This document shows, piece by piece, positions 27,831-35,750 of a stretch of 64,000 nt of DNA (the stretch's first letter is position 1; each line of letters opens with the position of its first letter). A program made the position numbers and the translations under genes. The notes beneath the pieces are model-generated. The model saw nothing but the letters and a program-made list of their open reading frames with translations. It did no database searches and was not told the DNA's origin. Source of the DNA: an uncultured Bizionia sp. (lineage in GTDB: Bacteria > Bacteroidota > Bacteroidia > Flavobacteriales > Flavobacteriaceae); assembly GCA_947496215.1 (NCBI GenBank), contig CANMCF010000006.1, forward strand, positions 124,001-188,000, in the 5' to 3' direction.

Positions 27831-29852
<2,022 letters not shown>

Positions 29853-29858
29853 ATATCT

Positions 29859-29929
29859 ATTTTAGAGGTTGACGATTAGGGTTTGCCTCTAAAATAATTC
29901 TTGTCAATGTTTTTATGCATAACATTGAC
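29859..29929 (+). terminator. Two successive hairpins after ligA
   Basis: First hairpin: attttagagg (29859-29868) with cctctaaaat (29886-29895). Second: gtcaatgtt (29903-29911) with aacattgac (29921-29929), followed by T-rich sequence. Both are perfect stems of 10 and 9 bp, and they probably end the ligA transcript before the membrane-gene array. Confidence 0.7.
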
Positions 29930-30081
29930 TTTTATTACTTTATGCTTATAGCCTATAGGGCATCTATCATTATTCTTTTATTATGCAATCACGTTGAAAA
30001 AGTAAATAGCTAATGCGATATTTTTTTTGTTAATTAATTGGTTTTTAGTATATTTAAGTTCCCTCTCCCCAAATTTTAAAA

Positions 30082-30610
30082 ATGATTGCTGATAGATTTA
30101 AGTTGATTGAAGGGGCAATAATATTTCTTGTCGCTTTGTTTGTAATTAGTATATTGTTAGGTTATACTTTGGTTTCAAGTATTACCAAAGCATTTATATT
30201 TCCTGTTTTTTTGCATTTGTATTTTACGAAATCGGACATTGAAAGCAAATCTTTCATTGGTTTCTTGTTGATGCTCTCATTTTTAGCAGTGTATTGTTTG
30301 TTGGTAATGAAGAAACCAATAATGCCTCCATATTTAATAGGTATGTTATACATATGCCTATTGATCTGTGTAATTAAGGGTTTCAATTTCAAGCAACAAC
30401 TAAATTATTTGGACTGCCCTACCCAAGATGGAGTTTTTGTTTTTGACTAGTGTTTGCATCGTGTTTTCAGAGATGGTTGAAGTTGCTTGTATATTTATCT
30501 CTGTAGATTATATTATAAATATTACTTATTCCTTGTTGTTGATTATTGGCTTCTATTTTTATATGAAATCAGAATCCAAGATTTATAGAAGCTACAAGGT
30601 ATTGTCTTAA
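30082..30610 (+). pseudogene. Broken first member of a tandem membrane-protein family
   Basis: The first frame (30082-30450) starts MIADRFKLIEGAIIFLVALF and closely matches the intact gene at 32903 through about TM3-4, ending in FNFKQQ. There it jumps directly to LNYL, a motif that in the intact gene lies about 57 codons later. The frame then ends early, and a second frame, from 30428, resumes with SVCIVFSEMV and YSLLLIIGFYF, the conserved end of the family. So the gene has lost a central segment by deletion and then shifted frame. Two adjacent pieces and nearly 85% identity of the 5' part with 32903 (by eye) support recent decay. It is unlikely to encode a working protein. Confidence 0.85.
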
Positions 30611-30709: not shown

Positions 30710-31405
30710 ATGAAAGTAGATCAACCTATGTTGATTAAAGGCATTGCGTACCTCTCAATTGTTACATATGTTATTTTTGCATTATTCGATCTTTGGTTTG
30801 TGTATGTTTTTCCACAGGCATTAATGTTTCCTTTGCTTTTATATTCTTATCTTAAGAGAGCTGATGCCGTAAGCAAATGTTTTATAGGTTTTTTACTTGG
30901 ATTTACTATGTCTGGAATTGATGGGGTAATGGGTGTGTTATTTGAGGAAGATGTCTTCAGTTCCCATATTGCAAATTCATTCTTTTTATTTGCTTACTTC
31001 TGCTTGTTTGTTTTCTTTTTGAAGAAGCTTAAATTGTTGGACTTGATAAGACGCTTTTGGGCGTATATGATCGTTTTATTGGTATTTGATGTTTACATTG
31101 TTTTTAATTTCAATCTGATGATGTTGGAATGTGAATGTTTTTTGGAGGATTCTTCTGGTCTCATATTTGAATATACATATAATGTGTTCGTAATACTGGT
31201 GCTTTCGTTTTCCTTGTTAAACTATTTATATAATGATACAAAAAGAGAGTTATTCTTGTTCTTGGCCATCGCTAGCATAGCGTTTTCGGAAATGGTACAA
31301 GTCGTCGTTCTTTTTTCGGCTCAGAATACTGATGCATTGGTAACACCATATCTTTTATTGTTAGGTGTGGGGTACTATTTTCTTTATAAATATACTTATT
31401 CATAG
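30710..31405 (+). CDS. Multi-pass membrane protein, subtype 2 of the tandem family
   Basis: From the ATG at 30710 (MKVDQPMLIKGIAYLSI) the protein has 231 residues and about seven or eight hydrophobic helices. This start aligns with that of the gene at 33682 (MKVDEIKIIRAIIYL), whose upstream sequence is also similar. The conserved core includes FIGFLLGFTMSGI, LVLSFSLLNYLYNDTK and LFLAIASIAFSEMVQVV, ending VTPYLLLLGVGYYF. The LNYLY...FSEMVQ pattern is vaguely like the YhhN/TMEM86 family, but I would not assign lysoplasmalogenase activity. A longer frame from 30614 is also open. Confidence 0.75.
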   Translation: MKVDQPMLIKGIAYLSIVTYVIFALFDLWFVYVFPQALMFPLLLYSYLKRADAVSKCFIGFLLGFTMSGIDGVMGVLFEEDVFSSHIANSFFLFAYFCLFVFFLKKLKLLDLIRRFWAYMIVLLVFDVYIVFNFNLMMLECECFLEDSSGLIFEYTYNVFVILVLSFSLLNYLYNDTKRELFLFLAIASIAFSEMVQVVVLFSAQNTDALVTPYLLLLGVGYYFLYKYTYS

Positions 31406-31595: not shown

Positions 31596-32393
31596 ATGAT
31601 TGTTGATAGATTTAAACTGTATGAAAGGACTGTTGTTTTGTTGTCCACCTTATTTGTTATTAGCGTCTTGTTTGATTTTATTTTAATGTTAAACATTACT
31701 CTATCATTGATATTCGTTGTTTTTCTGTATTTGTACCTTACAGAATCAGAAAGAAAGAGTAAAATTTTTATGGGTTTTTTATTGGCGTTTCTCATAGGTG
31801 ATATATATGCTGTTGTAATGGGGTTGTTCCATTTGATTTCTTCATATCTTGGAAATGCATCTTCTTATGTTGAACTTGAACCTTATGTTGGAAATATGCC
31901 ATTTGTTATAGCGTATATTTGTTTAATTGTATATATAGCTAGAGATTTTAATTTTAGTCAATTGATAAAGCGTTTTAAATACCATTTATTGGTATTGGTT
32001 ATTTTTAATGTCTATGCCATTCTTACACTTAATCGAATGATGTTGGAAGCTGAGTTTTTTGAGATGTATACCTTGGCATTTTTATTCGAAAGCATATATA
32101 ACTCATGTATTATTTTGGTACTCTCGTTTTCGTTGTTAAACTATATCTATTACGATACTGAAGTCAGTTTTTTATTATTGTTGGGAAGTATATTCGTAGT
32201 GTTTTCCGAAATGGTACAGGTAGCCTATTTTTTTATTCCTCCAGATTCCGAAATGATGCAGTTGCCTTATGATTTTATTTCTACTGGCCGTATTCTTTAT
32301 ATCACTTATTCTTTGTTGTTGATTATAGGCTTCTATTTCATTTACAGGTATATTTTAGCAGAGATGGAATTGAAAGTAAAACTTGATTTGTAA
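31596..32393 (+). CDS. Multi-pass membrane protein, subtype 1 of the tandem family
   Basis: A 265-residue protein from the ATG at 31596 (MIVDRFKLYERT), the same start motif as the genes at 30082 and 32903. It has about seven or eight membrane helices, the conserved DFNFSQLIKRFKYHLLVLVIFNVY, LVLSFSLLNYIYYDTE and FVVFSEMVQVAYFF, and ends ITYSLLLIIGFYFIY. It is the longest member, with extra residues in loops near SSYLGNASSYVELEPY and PPDSEMMQLPYD. Function unknown. The 190 bp upstream resemble the leader of the first gene of the array. Confidence 0.78.
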   Translation: MIVDRFKLYERTVVLLSTLFVISVLFDFILMLNITLSLIFVVFLYLYLTESERKSKIFMGFLLAFLIGDIYAVVMGLFHLISSYLGNASSYVELEPYVGNMPFVIAYICLIVYIARDFNFSQLIKRFKYHLLVLVIFNVYAILTLNRMMLEAEFFEMYTLAFLFESIYNSCIILVLSFSLLNYIYYDTEVSFLLLLGSIFVVFSEMVQVAYFFIPPDSEMMQLPYDFISTGRILYITYSLLLIIGFYFIYRYILAEMELKVKLDL

Positions 32394-32902
32394 AGTTAAG
32401 GTAACAAATTTAACTAAAAGGCAAACTGTTTCTGATGATAAAGAGCATACTTCCATTACAACCTGAATGTGAAGAGCGCTATAACGAGTTTTAAACAGAT
32501 TTAAGATGAAGATCGGTGAAAATGAATCTTTGCATTTAATTTAAAATGAGCTATGTTATGGCTGAAGACAAAATTGGGACCAAGTAAAAGAAAGTAGAGA
32601 AAACAGGAGTAGTTTTGATTTCAAAAAAAGGAATTATTTGTTAAGTTTTGACATATAGATCAATAAAATGTTTTTTTGAGGTTAAATCATTTGATTTAGA
32701 CACCAAAAAAGAATTTCTTCTGATTTTTAATTTTGATATAAGATATTGATTGTTAGTGTTTTGTTGTTTTGTTTTTAATAAAAAGGAATATCATTGGTCT
32801 TTTTTAAGTAATTGCGTTAAAAAAGTGAATTATCGATAAAAAGACATGTTTTATCGATTAATTGTGTGGTTTTCAATACATTTGCATCCCCAAGTTTACA
32901 AA
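32394..32902 (+). other. Intergenic region between third and fourth array genes
   Basis: Besides the ligA relic, the segment after it (about 32690-32902) resembles the real spacer downstream of ligA: both have a short aat-gcgtt(g)aaaaaagt stretch, a gttttat/ttttttt run and an identical approach to the ATG ending in attgttgatag-type sequence. TACATTTG at 32877-32884 matches a -7 element. I see no other gene. Confidence 0.65.
32480..32660 (+). pseudogene. Decayed copy of the 3' end of ligA
   Basis: The clearest stretch runs from about 32563 (gacaaaattgggaccaag) through ttgattt and aggaatt to ttaagtttt at 32648. It aligns with the end of ligA from about 29760 (gacaaaatggggccaag, ttgattt, aggaatt, ataagttt) at roughly three quarters identity by eye. 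Single-base insertions break the frame and a stop follows the first conserved codons. Weaker similarity reaches back to about 32480. The fragment lies in front of an intact array gene just as real ligA lies in front of the first one. No translation is expected. Confidence 0.8.
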
Positions 32903-33619
32903 ATGATTGTTGATAGATTTAAGTTGATTAAAGGGGCGGTGATTTTTCTTGCCGCTTTGTTTGTAATTAGTGTTTTGCTAGGTTATACTTTGATTTCAAG
33001 TATATCCAAAGCATTTGTGTTTCCTATTTTTTTATACCTATACCTTACGGAACCAGGTGTTAAAAGCAAGTCTTTTATTGGTTTTTTGTTGGTTTTCTCA
33101 CTTTCGGGGATATACGCTGTGATTTTGTCTATGTGTTCGATATTTTATTCTTATTTAACCAGTATGCCATATATAATGGCGTATCTATGTCTATTGGTTT
33201 ATATAATTAAAGAATTCAATTTTAGACAATTGGTAAAACGCTTTAAATATTATCTATTGGTTTTGTTGGTGTTCAATGGATATGTGATTTTTACCCTTAA
33301 CCAAATGATTCTTGAGGATGATTCTCTTAAAGTAAATACATTGGAATTTGTCATAGAGGGAGTTTACAATCTATGCATTTTGCTAGTGTTGTCCTTTTCG
33401 TTGTTAAACTATTTGTATCACGATTCTAGGACAGGGTTTTTATTGTTCCTGGCTAGTGTATGCATCGTATTTTCAGAGATGGTACAAGTTGCCTATATTT
33501 TTATCTCTGCAGATTATATTTTAAATGTTATTTATTCCCTGCTGTTAATCATTGGATTCTATTTCATTTATCTATACATTGAATCCAAGACCGACGATTA
33601 TCAAGCAATACGACCTTGA
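32903..33619 (+). CDS. Multi-pass membrane protein, subtype 1 of the tandem family
   Basis: A 238-residue protein from the ATG at 32903 (MIVDRFKLIKGAVIFLAALF), preferred because the same start motif occurs in two other members; a longer frame reaches 32846. It has about seven or eight helices, with FIGFLLVFSLSGIYAVI, EFNFRQLVKRFKYYLL, LVLSFSLLNYLYHDSR, SVCIVFSEMVQVAYIF and YSLLLIIGFYFIY conserved. It is the closest relative of the broken copy at 30082 and follows the ligA relic. No enzymatic motif was recognised; function unknown. Confidence 0.78.
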   Translation: MIVDRFKLIKGAVIFLAALFVISVLLGYTLISSISKAFVFPIFLYLYLTEPGVKSKSFIGFLLVFSLSGIYAVILSMCSIFYSYLTSMPYIMAYLCLLVYIIKEFNFRQLVKRFKYYLLVLLVFNGYVIFTLNQMILEDDSLKVNTLEFVIEGVYNLCILLVLSFSLLNYLYHDSRTGFLLFLASVCIVFSEMVQVAYIFISADYILNVIYSLLLIIGFYFIYLYIESKTDDYQAIRP

Positions 33620-33681: not shown

Positions 33682-34395
33682 ATGAAAGTTGATGAAATTA
33701 AAATAATCAGAGCAATAATATACTTGTTGATAAGTATGTTGACTATTTGCATTTTGCTTGATTATTCTTTGTTGGCTAACATTGCAAAGGCTTTTATATT
33801 TCCTGTTTATTTGTATGTTTATCTTAGGCGGCATACCGAAAAAAATAAATACTTCATATGTTTCCTACTTGGTTTTTCCTTAACAGGAATCCATGCAGTG
33901 ATAAATGAGTTGGATTCAGGCGTTTATTCTTGTATTGGTAGCTTTCCTATTGTTGTGGCTTATTTAAGCCTGCTCTTTTTTCTTGTTGGAAAGTTGAGAT
34001 TTAGGCACTTGGTAAAGCATTTTGGAGCTTATTTGCTTGTGTTGTCCATATTCAATGTATATGTCATCTTTACGCTCAATCAAATGATGATGGAAGATGG
34101 ATATCTACAAAGCTCTTGGGAATTCATATTCGAGTGTGTATATAATATCTCTGTGGTATTGGTGCTTTCACTTTCGTTGTTGAATTATCTATATGACGAT
34201 ACTAAAAAGAATTTATTGTTGTTTTTGGCCATTACATGCATTGCATTCTCCGAAATGGTGCAAGTAGTCTATATTTTTTCGGATGTGAGGACATTGAAAG
34301 CACCTTATCTACTATTACTAACCATAGGGATTTATTTCATATATCCATATATGAAATCCAAAGTAGATAATGACGATATGATGCCCTTGCCTTAA
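33682..34395 (+). CDS. Multi-pass membrane protein, subtype 2 of the tandem family
   Basis: A 237-residue protein from the ATG at 33682 (MKVDEIKIIRAIIYLLI). It shares with the gene at 30710 the ending LAITCIAFSEMVQVVYIFS and APYLLLL, and an upstream stretch (tgttgaatat versus tattgaatat before the ATG). The shared ICFLLGFSLTGIHAVI and LVLSLSLLNYLYDDTK mark the family. It is the last member of the array and ends 4 bp before the stop of the convergent DoxX gene. Function unknown. Confidence 0.78.
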   Translation: MKVDEIKIIRAIIYLLISMLTICILLDYSLLANIAKAFIFPVYLYVYLRRHTEKNKYFICFLLGFSLTGIHAVINELDSGVYSCIGSFPIVVAYLSLLFFLVGKLRFRHLVKHFGAYLLVLSIFNVYVIFTLNQMMMEDGYLQSSWEFIFECVYNISVVLVLSLSLLNYLYDDTKKNLLLFLAITCIAFSEMVQVVYIFSDVRTLKAPYLLLLTIGIYFIYPYMKSKVDNDDMMPLP

Positions 34396-34399
34396 ATTT

Positions 34400-34777
34400 C
34401 TATAGTTTTAAAAATGGAATGTCTTTTCGGTAGAAAAACAATACGATGGCAGATAATATGAAGGTAACCACGGCAGTAATAAACAATACGCCTCCATCAT
34501 TTTTGATCTCTATGCCCAATTGTGTCAAGTGCATCATTATGGCTCCACCAATAAGTCCTAAGGTCAATGTTGCACCAGCCCAAACCGTCTTTGGGATCAG
34601 TAACAAGATGCCAGCAATGAGTTCCAATACACCAATGCCTATGCGACCAAAGGGTTCTAATCCCACTTGTTCGAAAATATAGACACTGTCTGGATGAGCA
34701 GTAAATTTAAAACGTAAAGTTTGTATTAGGATTATGGCTACAATTAATCTTAAGATAAACAATAATTTGGTTTTCAT
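34400..34777 (-). CDS. DoxX-family membrane protein
   Basis: A 125-residue protein with four hydrophobic helices and the DoxX pattern IIQTLRFKFTAHPDSV...LEPFGRIGIGVLELIAGILLLIPKT. It sits in the inner membrane; some relatives take part in sulfur or quinone redox chemistry, but the role here is unknown. It points toward the last array gene, separated by 4 bp, with no visible terminator between them. Confidence 0.85.
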   Translation of the reverse strand: MKTKLLFILRLIVAIILIQTLRFKFTAHPDSVYIFEQVGLEPFGRIGIGVLELIAGILLLIPKTVWAGATLTLGLIGGAIMMHLTQLGIEIKNDGGVLFITAVVTFILSAIVLFFYRKDIPFLKL

Positions 34778-34832: not shown

Positions 34833-35750
34833 TTACACTATTATGGATGCACCATCTGCAGTTTTGTTTTTGTTGGCATCAAAGTAAAAATCTATTCTAC
34901 CCAGATTTATGCCATAACAACCGACTTGATTTACCAGTACGTTCTTACCTTCACTATTTTGTGCAATTGTAGGTTTTGGTAAAAAAGTGTGGGTATGCCC
35001 TCCAATGATTAAATCGATGTCCTTTGTCGATTTTGCCAAAAGAAGATCACAAATCTTCTTTGGATTTTTTTTATAATAATAGCCCAAGTGAGATAAGCAA
35101 ACAATGAGATCGCAAGCTTCATCCTCCTTGAGGATGCGAGTCATTTCTTGAGAGCTTTCAATAGGGTCCAAATATTCGGTCTCCTTATACATTTTTTTGT
35201 CTACAAGACCATTTAACTTCACTCCTAGGCCGAAAACACCAATTTTCAAACCATCTTTTATGAACACTTGGTATGGTTTTACATGAGTATCCATAATGGT
35301 GTTTTTAAAATTGTAATTGGCGGAAAGAAATTGAAACTTGGCATGGGGTAGTTGGGCATAGAGGCCATCAACGCCATTGTCGAAATCATGGTTTCCTATC
35401 GTAGCTGCATCATACTTCATCTTGGACATCAATTTGAATTCGAGTTCACCTCCATAATAATTGAAATACGGTGTTCCCTGAAAAATGTCCCCAGCATCCA
35501 ACAACAATGTATTTGGATTCTCATTGCGTATGGCCTCCACAAGACTAGCTCTTCTTGCCACTCCACCTTGATTTGCGTTTCTAGATGCATCCGGAGCAAA
35601 AGGATCAATATGACTGTGTACGTCATTGGTATGCAATATTGTGATTTTTTTCAGCTTCGGTGAGGAGTTGAAAGATTGTAATCCAAAACCACCTATGGTT
35701 ACCAAGGCTGTAGCTGCTGTCGATTGTTGTAAGAATGTTCTACGTTTCAT
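34833..35750 (-). CDS. Metallophosphatase, N-terminal half of a 5'-nucleotidase, Tat-type signal
   Basis: A 305-residue exported protein with a twin-arginine-like start MKRRTFLQQSTAATALVTIGGFG. It holds the metal-binding motifs of the UshA/5'-nucleotidase catalytic domain: TILHTNDVHSHIDPF, LLDAGDIFQGTPYF, IGNHDFDNG, LSHLGYYY and GGHTHTF. The C-terminal substrate-binding domain is absent and is encoded by the next gene upstream (35753-36511). The pair should hydrolyse nucleotides or similar phosphoesters in the periplasm or at the surface. Confidence 0.9.
   Translation of the reverse strand: MKRRTFLQQSTAATALVTIGGFGLQSFNSSPKLKKITILHTNDVHSHIDPFAPDASRNANQGGVARRASLVEAIRNENPNTLLLDAGDIFQGTPYFNYYGGELEFKLMSKMKYDAATIGNHDFDNGVDGLYAQLPHAKFQFLSANYNFKNTIMDTHVKPYQVFIKDGLKIGVFGLGVKLNGLVDKKMYKETEYLDPIESSQEMTRILKEDEACDLIVCLSHLGYYYKKNPKKICDLLLAKSTKDIDLIIGGHTHTFLPKPTIAQNSEGKNVLVNQVGCYGINLGRIDFYFDANKNKTADGASIIV

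Follow-up and report, generated by a model that had tools for sequence, protein, structure and literature searches.

Tandem duplication join points are a feature of bacterial gene duplication and amplification, and a truncated gene at such a join point is a known kind of feature, the process being an ordinary one. Islands that integrate in the 3′ ends of genes leave a displaced original end. In addition, birth-and-death evolution is known for tandem gene families, and the scars of duplication tend to decay or to recombine away. The locus described here can be set beside all three systems: inside an array of related genes that follows the intact ligA lies a decayed remnant of the ligA 3′ end. 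Among the papers listed by literature searches, none describes this locus in its title or in the opening lines of its abstract.

The window, that is, the whole 64-kb stretch of DNA that was analysed, lies in a 4.95-Mb genome of 132 contigs, the nearest relatives of which are Flavobacteriaceae. Five related genes, for which this analysis uses its own labels A to E, sit on the plus strand between ligA (27852..29852, plus strand) and a DoxX-like gene (34400..34777, minus strand). According to its Pfam matches and alignment, ligA, the gene for NAD-dependent DNA ligase, is intact. Gene A (subtype 1; 30082..30610) is broken into two open reading frames in different frames (30082-30450 and 30428-30610), which correspond to different parts of D-type genes, and its middle is missing. 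Gene B (subtype 2; 30710..31405), in which the ATG corresponding to the family start is at 30710, and gene C (subtype 3; 31596..32393) are read from their open reading frames. Gene D (subtype 1; 32903..33619) is intact, as judged from its place in the tree and from dN/dS. Gene E (subtype 2; 33682..34395), recognised by its open reading frame and by the order in relatives, abuts the DoxX-like gene, as does the last array gene in G001 and in several Lacinutrix. The DoxX-like membrane protein is a conserved neighbour by gene order and matches DoxX (PF07681) with 24.3 bits against a cut-off of 23.6. Beyond it lies the far neighbour used as an anchor on the basis of the order in relatives (34833..35750, minus strand), which we take, from the look of the sequence, to encode a 5′-nucleotidase-like protein.

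The products of B to E match no Pfam or NCBIfam family at E values up to 1. The A piece, compared with Pfam only, gave three weak matches below the cut-off, and among six relatives of the array proteins three gave only sub-cut-off Pfam matches and three gave none. The AlphaFold2 model of D, built from 70 sequences, has a mean pLDDT of 87 and eight long helices. Foldseek comparison with the PDB returned no match at 1e-3; the best E value was 0.15, and the leading matches, for the most part to GPCR-, rhodopsin- and designed-helix-type folds, superposed poorly. From this model, the intact array genes are predicted to encode an eight-helix membrane family that sits beside ligA in many Flavobacteriaceae, for which a role as an integral membrane protein, perhaps in sensing or related to lipids, could be guessed. 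A distant relative of the array proteins is also found elsewhere in the genome (L134 1447-2187, G000:C27; E 7e-13), where, judging by sequence appearance, one neighbouring open reading frame is presumably glycosyltransferase-like and the other alpha-fucosidase-like.

The relic, which reproduces the final ~165-195 bases of ligA in decayed form, occupies 32468-32658 of the window (plus strand) and is strongest at 32493-32648; its source, at most the last ~195 bases of ligA (29658-29852, plus strand), encodes part of the BRCT domain. When the ligA tail (29500-29852) was aligned with the gap 32394-32845 under a +2/-3/-5/-2 scheme, the top local alignment paired 29688-29843 with 32493-32648 at a score of 72, compared with a mean of 22.9 (sd 2.7, maximum 37) for 1000 dinucleotide shuffles. 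Softer scoring widened the alignment to 29658-29852 and 32468-32658 with a score of 357 (shuffles: mean 184, sd 23, maximum 271), and under a third scheme none of 1000 shuffles equalled the relic score. A relic of the ligA end before the fourth array gene, with small indels and stops, had been proposed in the preliminary description, and it is borne out: identity is above the random level, the copy contains indels relative to ligA, and early in it an in-frame TAA stands opposite a GAA of ligA (AAACTGATTGAAGAT vs AAACAGATTTAAGAT). A scan of both strands of the 64-kb window in overlapping pieces, with the last 400 bases of ligA as the query, gave only two matches above 30, ligA itself (800) and the relic (72), the next best score being 30. 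Elsewhere in the window array, the five remaining gaps gave stringent ligA-tail scores of 15-22, inside the shuffle range, and under the softer scheme the least likely value was reached by 8/300 shuffles; no second relic is claimed there. A chance similarity in intergenic DNA might be argued from the AT-rich composition and from the absence of the relic among the 41 matches that the ligA tail gave in a blastn-type search of the genome. The relic contains no long exact word and is therefore visible only by gapped local alignment. A chance origin is hardly credible in the face of 0/1000 shuffles in all three scoring schemes, the uniqueness of the match in 64 kb and the recurrence of the relic in a second genome of the genus, described below.

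The relic differs from the ligA of the window at 14/53, 15/52 and 25/53 sites of codon positions 1, 2 and 3, respectively, whereas the intact ligA genes of the window and of this second genome, MAG-66, differ at 5/70, 1/70 and 23/70. Because its pattern is unlike that of the intact pair, the relic is, as far as codon positions tell, free of protein constraint. It lies in direct orientation downstream of the intact ligA as a truncated copy of the boundary gene, and the DNA 3′ of it is collinear with the DNA 3′ of the intact ligA through the spacer and the gene start, both of which are marks of a partial tandem duplication scar. The spacer and promoter region from ligA to A (29853..30081, plus strand) aligns to 32666-32902, within the corresponding region from the relic to D (32659..32902, plus strand); the two spacers align almost end to end with a score of 325, above shuffles of 164 ± 18.5 (maximum 260, n=1000), and genes A and D begin alike in alignment. 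The resemblance of this spacer and of the start of the gene at 32903 to those after ligA, which had been noticed before, thus stands, and the order of ligA tail, spacer and subtype-1 gene start is repeated. On the 5′ side of the relic, the 3′ flank of C (32394..32467, plus strand, from alignment) leads up to it, and from the alignment limits its join to the ligA-derived DNA is placed at ~32468-32492.

A first search with protein D against 99 genomes, the window's own included, gave matches in 24. The set contains two other genomes of the genus, namely the MAG 'Bizionia sp. MAG-66' (G002) and G001, an uncultured Flavobacteriaceae, whose LigA proteins are 95% and 89% identical to that of the window. 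MAG-66 is a metagenome bin with its array on two contigs, one with the order ligA, C1, relic a and a truncated A-type gene and the other with C2, relic b, D, E and DoxX, and both array contig ends are multi-copy repeats; its locus, like that of the window, is known from assembled contigs alone. Relic b, between C2 and D (L022 1169-1398), is in the same place as the relic of the window. Against MAG-66's own ligA it scores 297 (shuffle maximum 258) and 34 (maximum 31) with 300 shuffles, and against the ligA of the window it is weak, with a stringent score of 25 reached by 57/300 shuffles and a score of 238 reached by 8/300. MAG-66 carries a second relic, relic a, between C1 and the truncated A-type gene (L021 5627-5750), which scores 208 (shuffle maximum 199) and 40 (maximum 36) against MAG-66's own ligA with 300 shuffles, and 48 against the ligA of the window (shuffle maximum 29). 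A further relic suspected before C2 (L022 1-334) was not found by ligA-tail alignment. The truncated gene, A2, is the counterpart of A; beyond roughly codon 23 it passes into the repeat at the end of the contig.

The order in G001 is ligA-x-y-D, with no clear relic by ligA-tail alignment; the x-y gap gave the lowest values under the softer scheme, reached by 5 to 34 of 300 shuffles, and is not counted as a relic. Elsewhere around this locus, G001 has a 340-bp direct repeat (93%; L023 8735-9074 and L024 7839-8178) made of the end of D and the end of the DoxX-like gene. The repeat flanks a segment of ~14.7 kb with open reading frames that we assume, from the look of the sequence, to be nadB-like, TonB-receptor-like, aminotransferase-like and ABC-transporter-like, among which no integrase was recognised by eye in the first 70 residues of frames of at least 110 aa.

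A wider scan of a genome collection provided the best 80 of 139 confirmed loci. Together with the window, these comprise 67 complete loci, having both ligA and the nucleotidase gene, and 14 incomplete ones. Between ligA and the nucleotidase gene, the complete loci have one array-family gene in 35 cases, two in 21 and three in 8, and one locus each has four, five (the window, with the broken A counted) and six; some second array copies sit beyond the DoxX-like gene. For 76 rows the array region was compared with the ligA tail, and 7 rows were skipped; the 76 include the window, MAG-66 twice (L021, L051) and G001 twice (L023, L050), so 72 loci remain once the window and MAG-66 are set aside. The window, with a Z of 18.9, and MAG-66, with 7.1 and 6.1, were the sole clear outliers. 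No relic was detected in the 72 other loci, G001 included, where one as decayed as relic b could escape in distant genera. The ligA tail detected no relic in any of the 35 loci with a single array gene, so that relics in genomes without a duplicated array, which would have spoken against a duplication, were found in 0/35, and a scar-free single-copy state is present in relatives. The weak signals at L068 and L080, with Z values of 4.5 and 4.2, come from ~36-40 bases in one scheme and fall to 0.7 and 1.0 in the other; that of L080 lies inside an array gene, and both are taken as chance. A six-gene array after ligA occurs in an uncultured Flavobacteriaceae (L066 2854-8100), where a ligA relic was not detected.

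To relate the array genes to one another, a tree was built from 54 proteins; they came from the window, the two other genomes of the genus and 23 of the 80 surveyed loci, and the truncated A2 was left out. The intact array genes of the window and MAG-66, the A piece and the D of G001 form one clade (98/96, ten rows). Within it, the A piece, with only 44% of columns filled, groups with the two D genes of the window and MAG-66 (96/89), B is sister to their two E genes (100/99), and C, C1 and C2 make up a third group (100/100). In the spacer tree, the spacers of window A and MAG-66 A2 are separated from the D spacers by a 100/100 split, the ligA-A spacer being nearest to that between relic a and A2 (176/213). 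Therefore, unless they were exchanged, both unit starts predate the parting of the window and MAG-66 species. The tail-only tree is weak, with a best relic split of 89.8/53 and relic a placed at 17.5/34.

Collectively, we consider the relic to be the join-point scar of a tandem duplication whose unit ran from the ligA tail through C, with a probability of roughly 0.83. In an ancestor common to the window and MAG-66, the segment from ~165-195 bases before the ligA stop to just after C would have been copied head to tail, presumably by unequal exchange or short-homology joining. Since the left break fell inside ligA, the upstream ligA would have remained whole and the downstream copy would have started with a useless tail, which brought the promoter region of the first gene along and, being unconstrained, later decayed. 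The ancestral order was possibly ligA-A-B-C-E; after duplication of the ligA tail with A, B and C, D would correspond to A, and the extra B and C would then have been lost beside the older E, perhaps via exchange between the second B and E, giving ligA-A-B-C-relic-D-E. A tandem duplication had been suggested before, with a unit of the ligA tail, one subtype-1 gene and one subtype-2 gene. The start inside ligA, the repeated order, the pairing of A with D and B with E and the detection of a relic in the window and MAG-66 only, among 76 rows, all agree with that suggestion, and it is the right end that differs: each of the three relics is directly preceded by gene C, which probably places the end of the copied unit after C and not after a subtype-2 gene. 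The two-gene unit could be kept if C had been inserted later between B and the relic, in keeping with the A/D and B/E pairs in the tree and the odd, possibly exchanged history of the C genes; the position of C at every relic and the different apparent ages of the two pairs make it quite unlikely.

These ages were compared over the first 106 codons, using the third positions of codons that encode an identical amino acid in both genes. Agreement is 47/61 for A and D and 21/39 for B and E (p 0.027), which suggests that B and E probably split before A and D, and that E was probably already present before the duplication. The equal divergence needed for one event making the D-E pair was thus not found. 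Of the earlier proposal that duplication gave this pair, the correspondence of the genes survives, and a single simple event for both, which is probably not what happened, is not claimed here; a larger unit with later losses is preferred. For the D orthologs, agreement over these codons is 61/90, so A and D are at least as alike. They look no older than the species split, yet the tree and the spacers place their split earlier, and gene conversion or exchange would be needed to reconcile the two. Attempts to date the relic by shared ligA states were less informative. At 31 sites where the window and MAG-66 agree against G001, it follows window/MAG-66 at 15, G001 at 8 and neither at 8, the expected direction and too weak to use, and an apparent sharing of window-specific states by relic a (8 vs 1, with 4 neither) became ~4 vs 3 in a second alignment by eye and was dropped.

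Some observations on gene C do not favour the duplication reading. Window C and MAG-66 C1 (31596-32393 and L021 4807-5598) agree at 181/217 third positions, compared with 925/1387 in five ortholog pairs (Fisher p 3.5e-7), a likeness that a purely vertical history does not predict. Agreement is also high for C and C2 (136/174) and for C1 and C2 (139/175), and the D genes that follow the relics have diverged to an ordinary degree (141/206). The ~30 bases after the C stop are alike in window C, C1 and a C tail (C0) and little so in C2, so that a 3′ flank is clearly common to the first three only. It is possible, judging by these counts, that C copies were exchanged between lineages or are under unusual constraint. 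Between the window and MAG-66, dN/dS is 0.074 for D, the lowest of the three array pairs, 0.145 for E and 0.212 for C and C1.

Upstream of the D promoter lies a twin box, recognised by pattern comparison as two ATCGATWAA-like words ~21 bp apart (32832..32861, plus strand). It is kept before D and, by eye, also before the corresponding gene in several Flavobacteriaceae genera, and it is decayed before A and C. A loose form of the pattern precedes 45/138 array-family open reading frames, compared with 17 of 1600 stretches drawn at random from these loci, a background that may itself include parts of some true boxes; in the window D alone has it. The strict pattern matches once more in the genome (G000:C12:8961-8989), near two similar small open reading frames and a gene that we assume, from the look of the sequence, to be menB-like. 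Gene D keeps the ancestral promoter box and the upstream copy A is broken, so preservation is now better on the side of D, previously supposed to be the new copy.

The state of D is also what would be expected if the relic were a displaced original end, that is, if an A-B-C segment carrying its own ligA end had recombined or integrated at the ligA 3′ end and restored ligA, leaving the old end before D. The geometry would be identical, the C genes look exchanged between lineages, and the relic is slightly nearer the ligA of MAG-66 (110/161) than that of the window (106/161). We regard this as very unlikely. The tree puts A, B and C together with D in one clade, so an insert would not consist of unrelated cargo, and the present ligA tail resembles its MAG-66 counterpart (0.85-0.86 over the final windows) to the same degree as the body of the gene does (0.80-0.92 along it). 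Moreover, neither a recombinase gene nor unrelated cargo was found between the intact and the second ligA end, where A, B, C and frames of up to 122 aa are present and only B and C exceed 122 aa. A partial tandem duplication thus remains our preferred reading.

The scar shows where a break occurred during the expansion of a tandem array and gives that expansion a relative date, and such a scrap helps to reconstruct how the array grew. The locus also points to a conserved membrane protein family beside ligA in Flavobacteriaceae that has its own conserved promoter box. More speculatively, and in our view rather improbably, the ligA 3′ end may be a repeated recombination boundary, at which units made of the ligA tail and membrane-protein genes that diverge would be duplicated and lost, and would also pass from one related species to another; if so, the array would be a small turnover locus for an eight-helix membrane family with a conserved twin-box promoter.

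Compared with the known systems, the locus resembles islands that integrate in gene 3′ ends in having a second gene end downstream of an intact gene, and differs from them in that no integrase-like open reading frame and no unrelated cargo lie between the two. It shares with birth-and-death gene families its subtypes, the broken A, the truncated A2 and the range of 1-6 copies among the 67 complete loci, whereas here the locus is bacterial, the membrane protein family is unnamed and ligA serves as the boundary gene. With tandem duplication join points it has in common the head-to-tail copy, the truncated boundary gene at the junction and an array that grows and shrinks; unlike a fresh amplification, its scar is old, decayed and common to two species.
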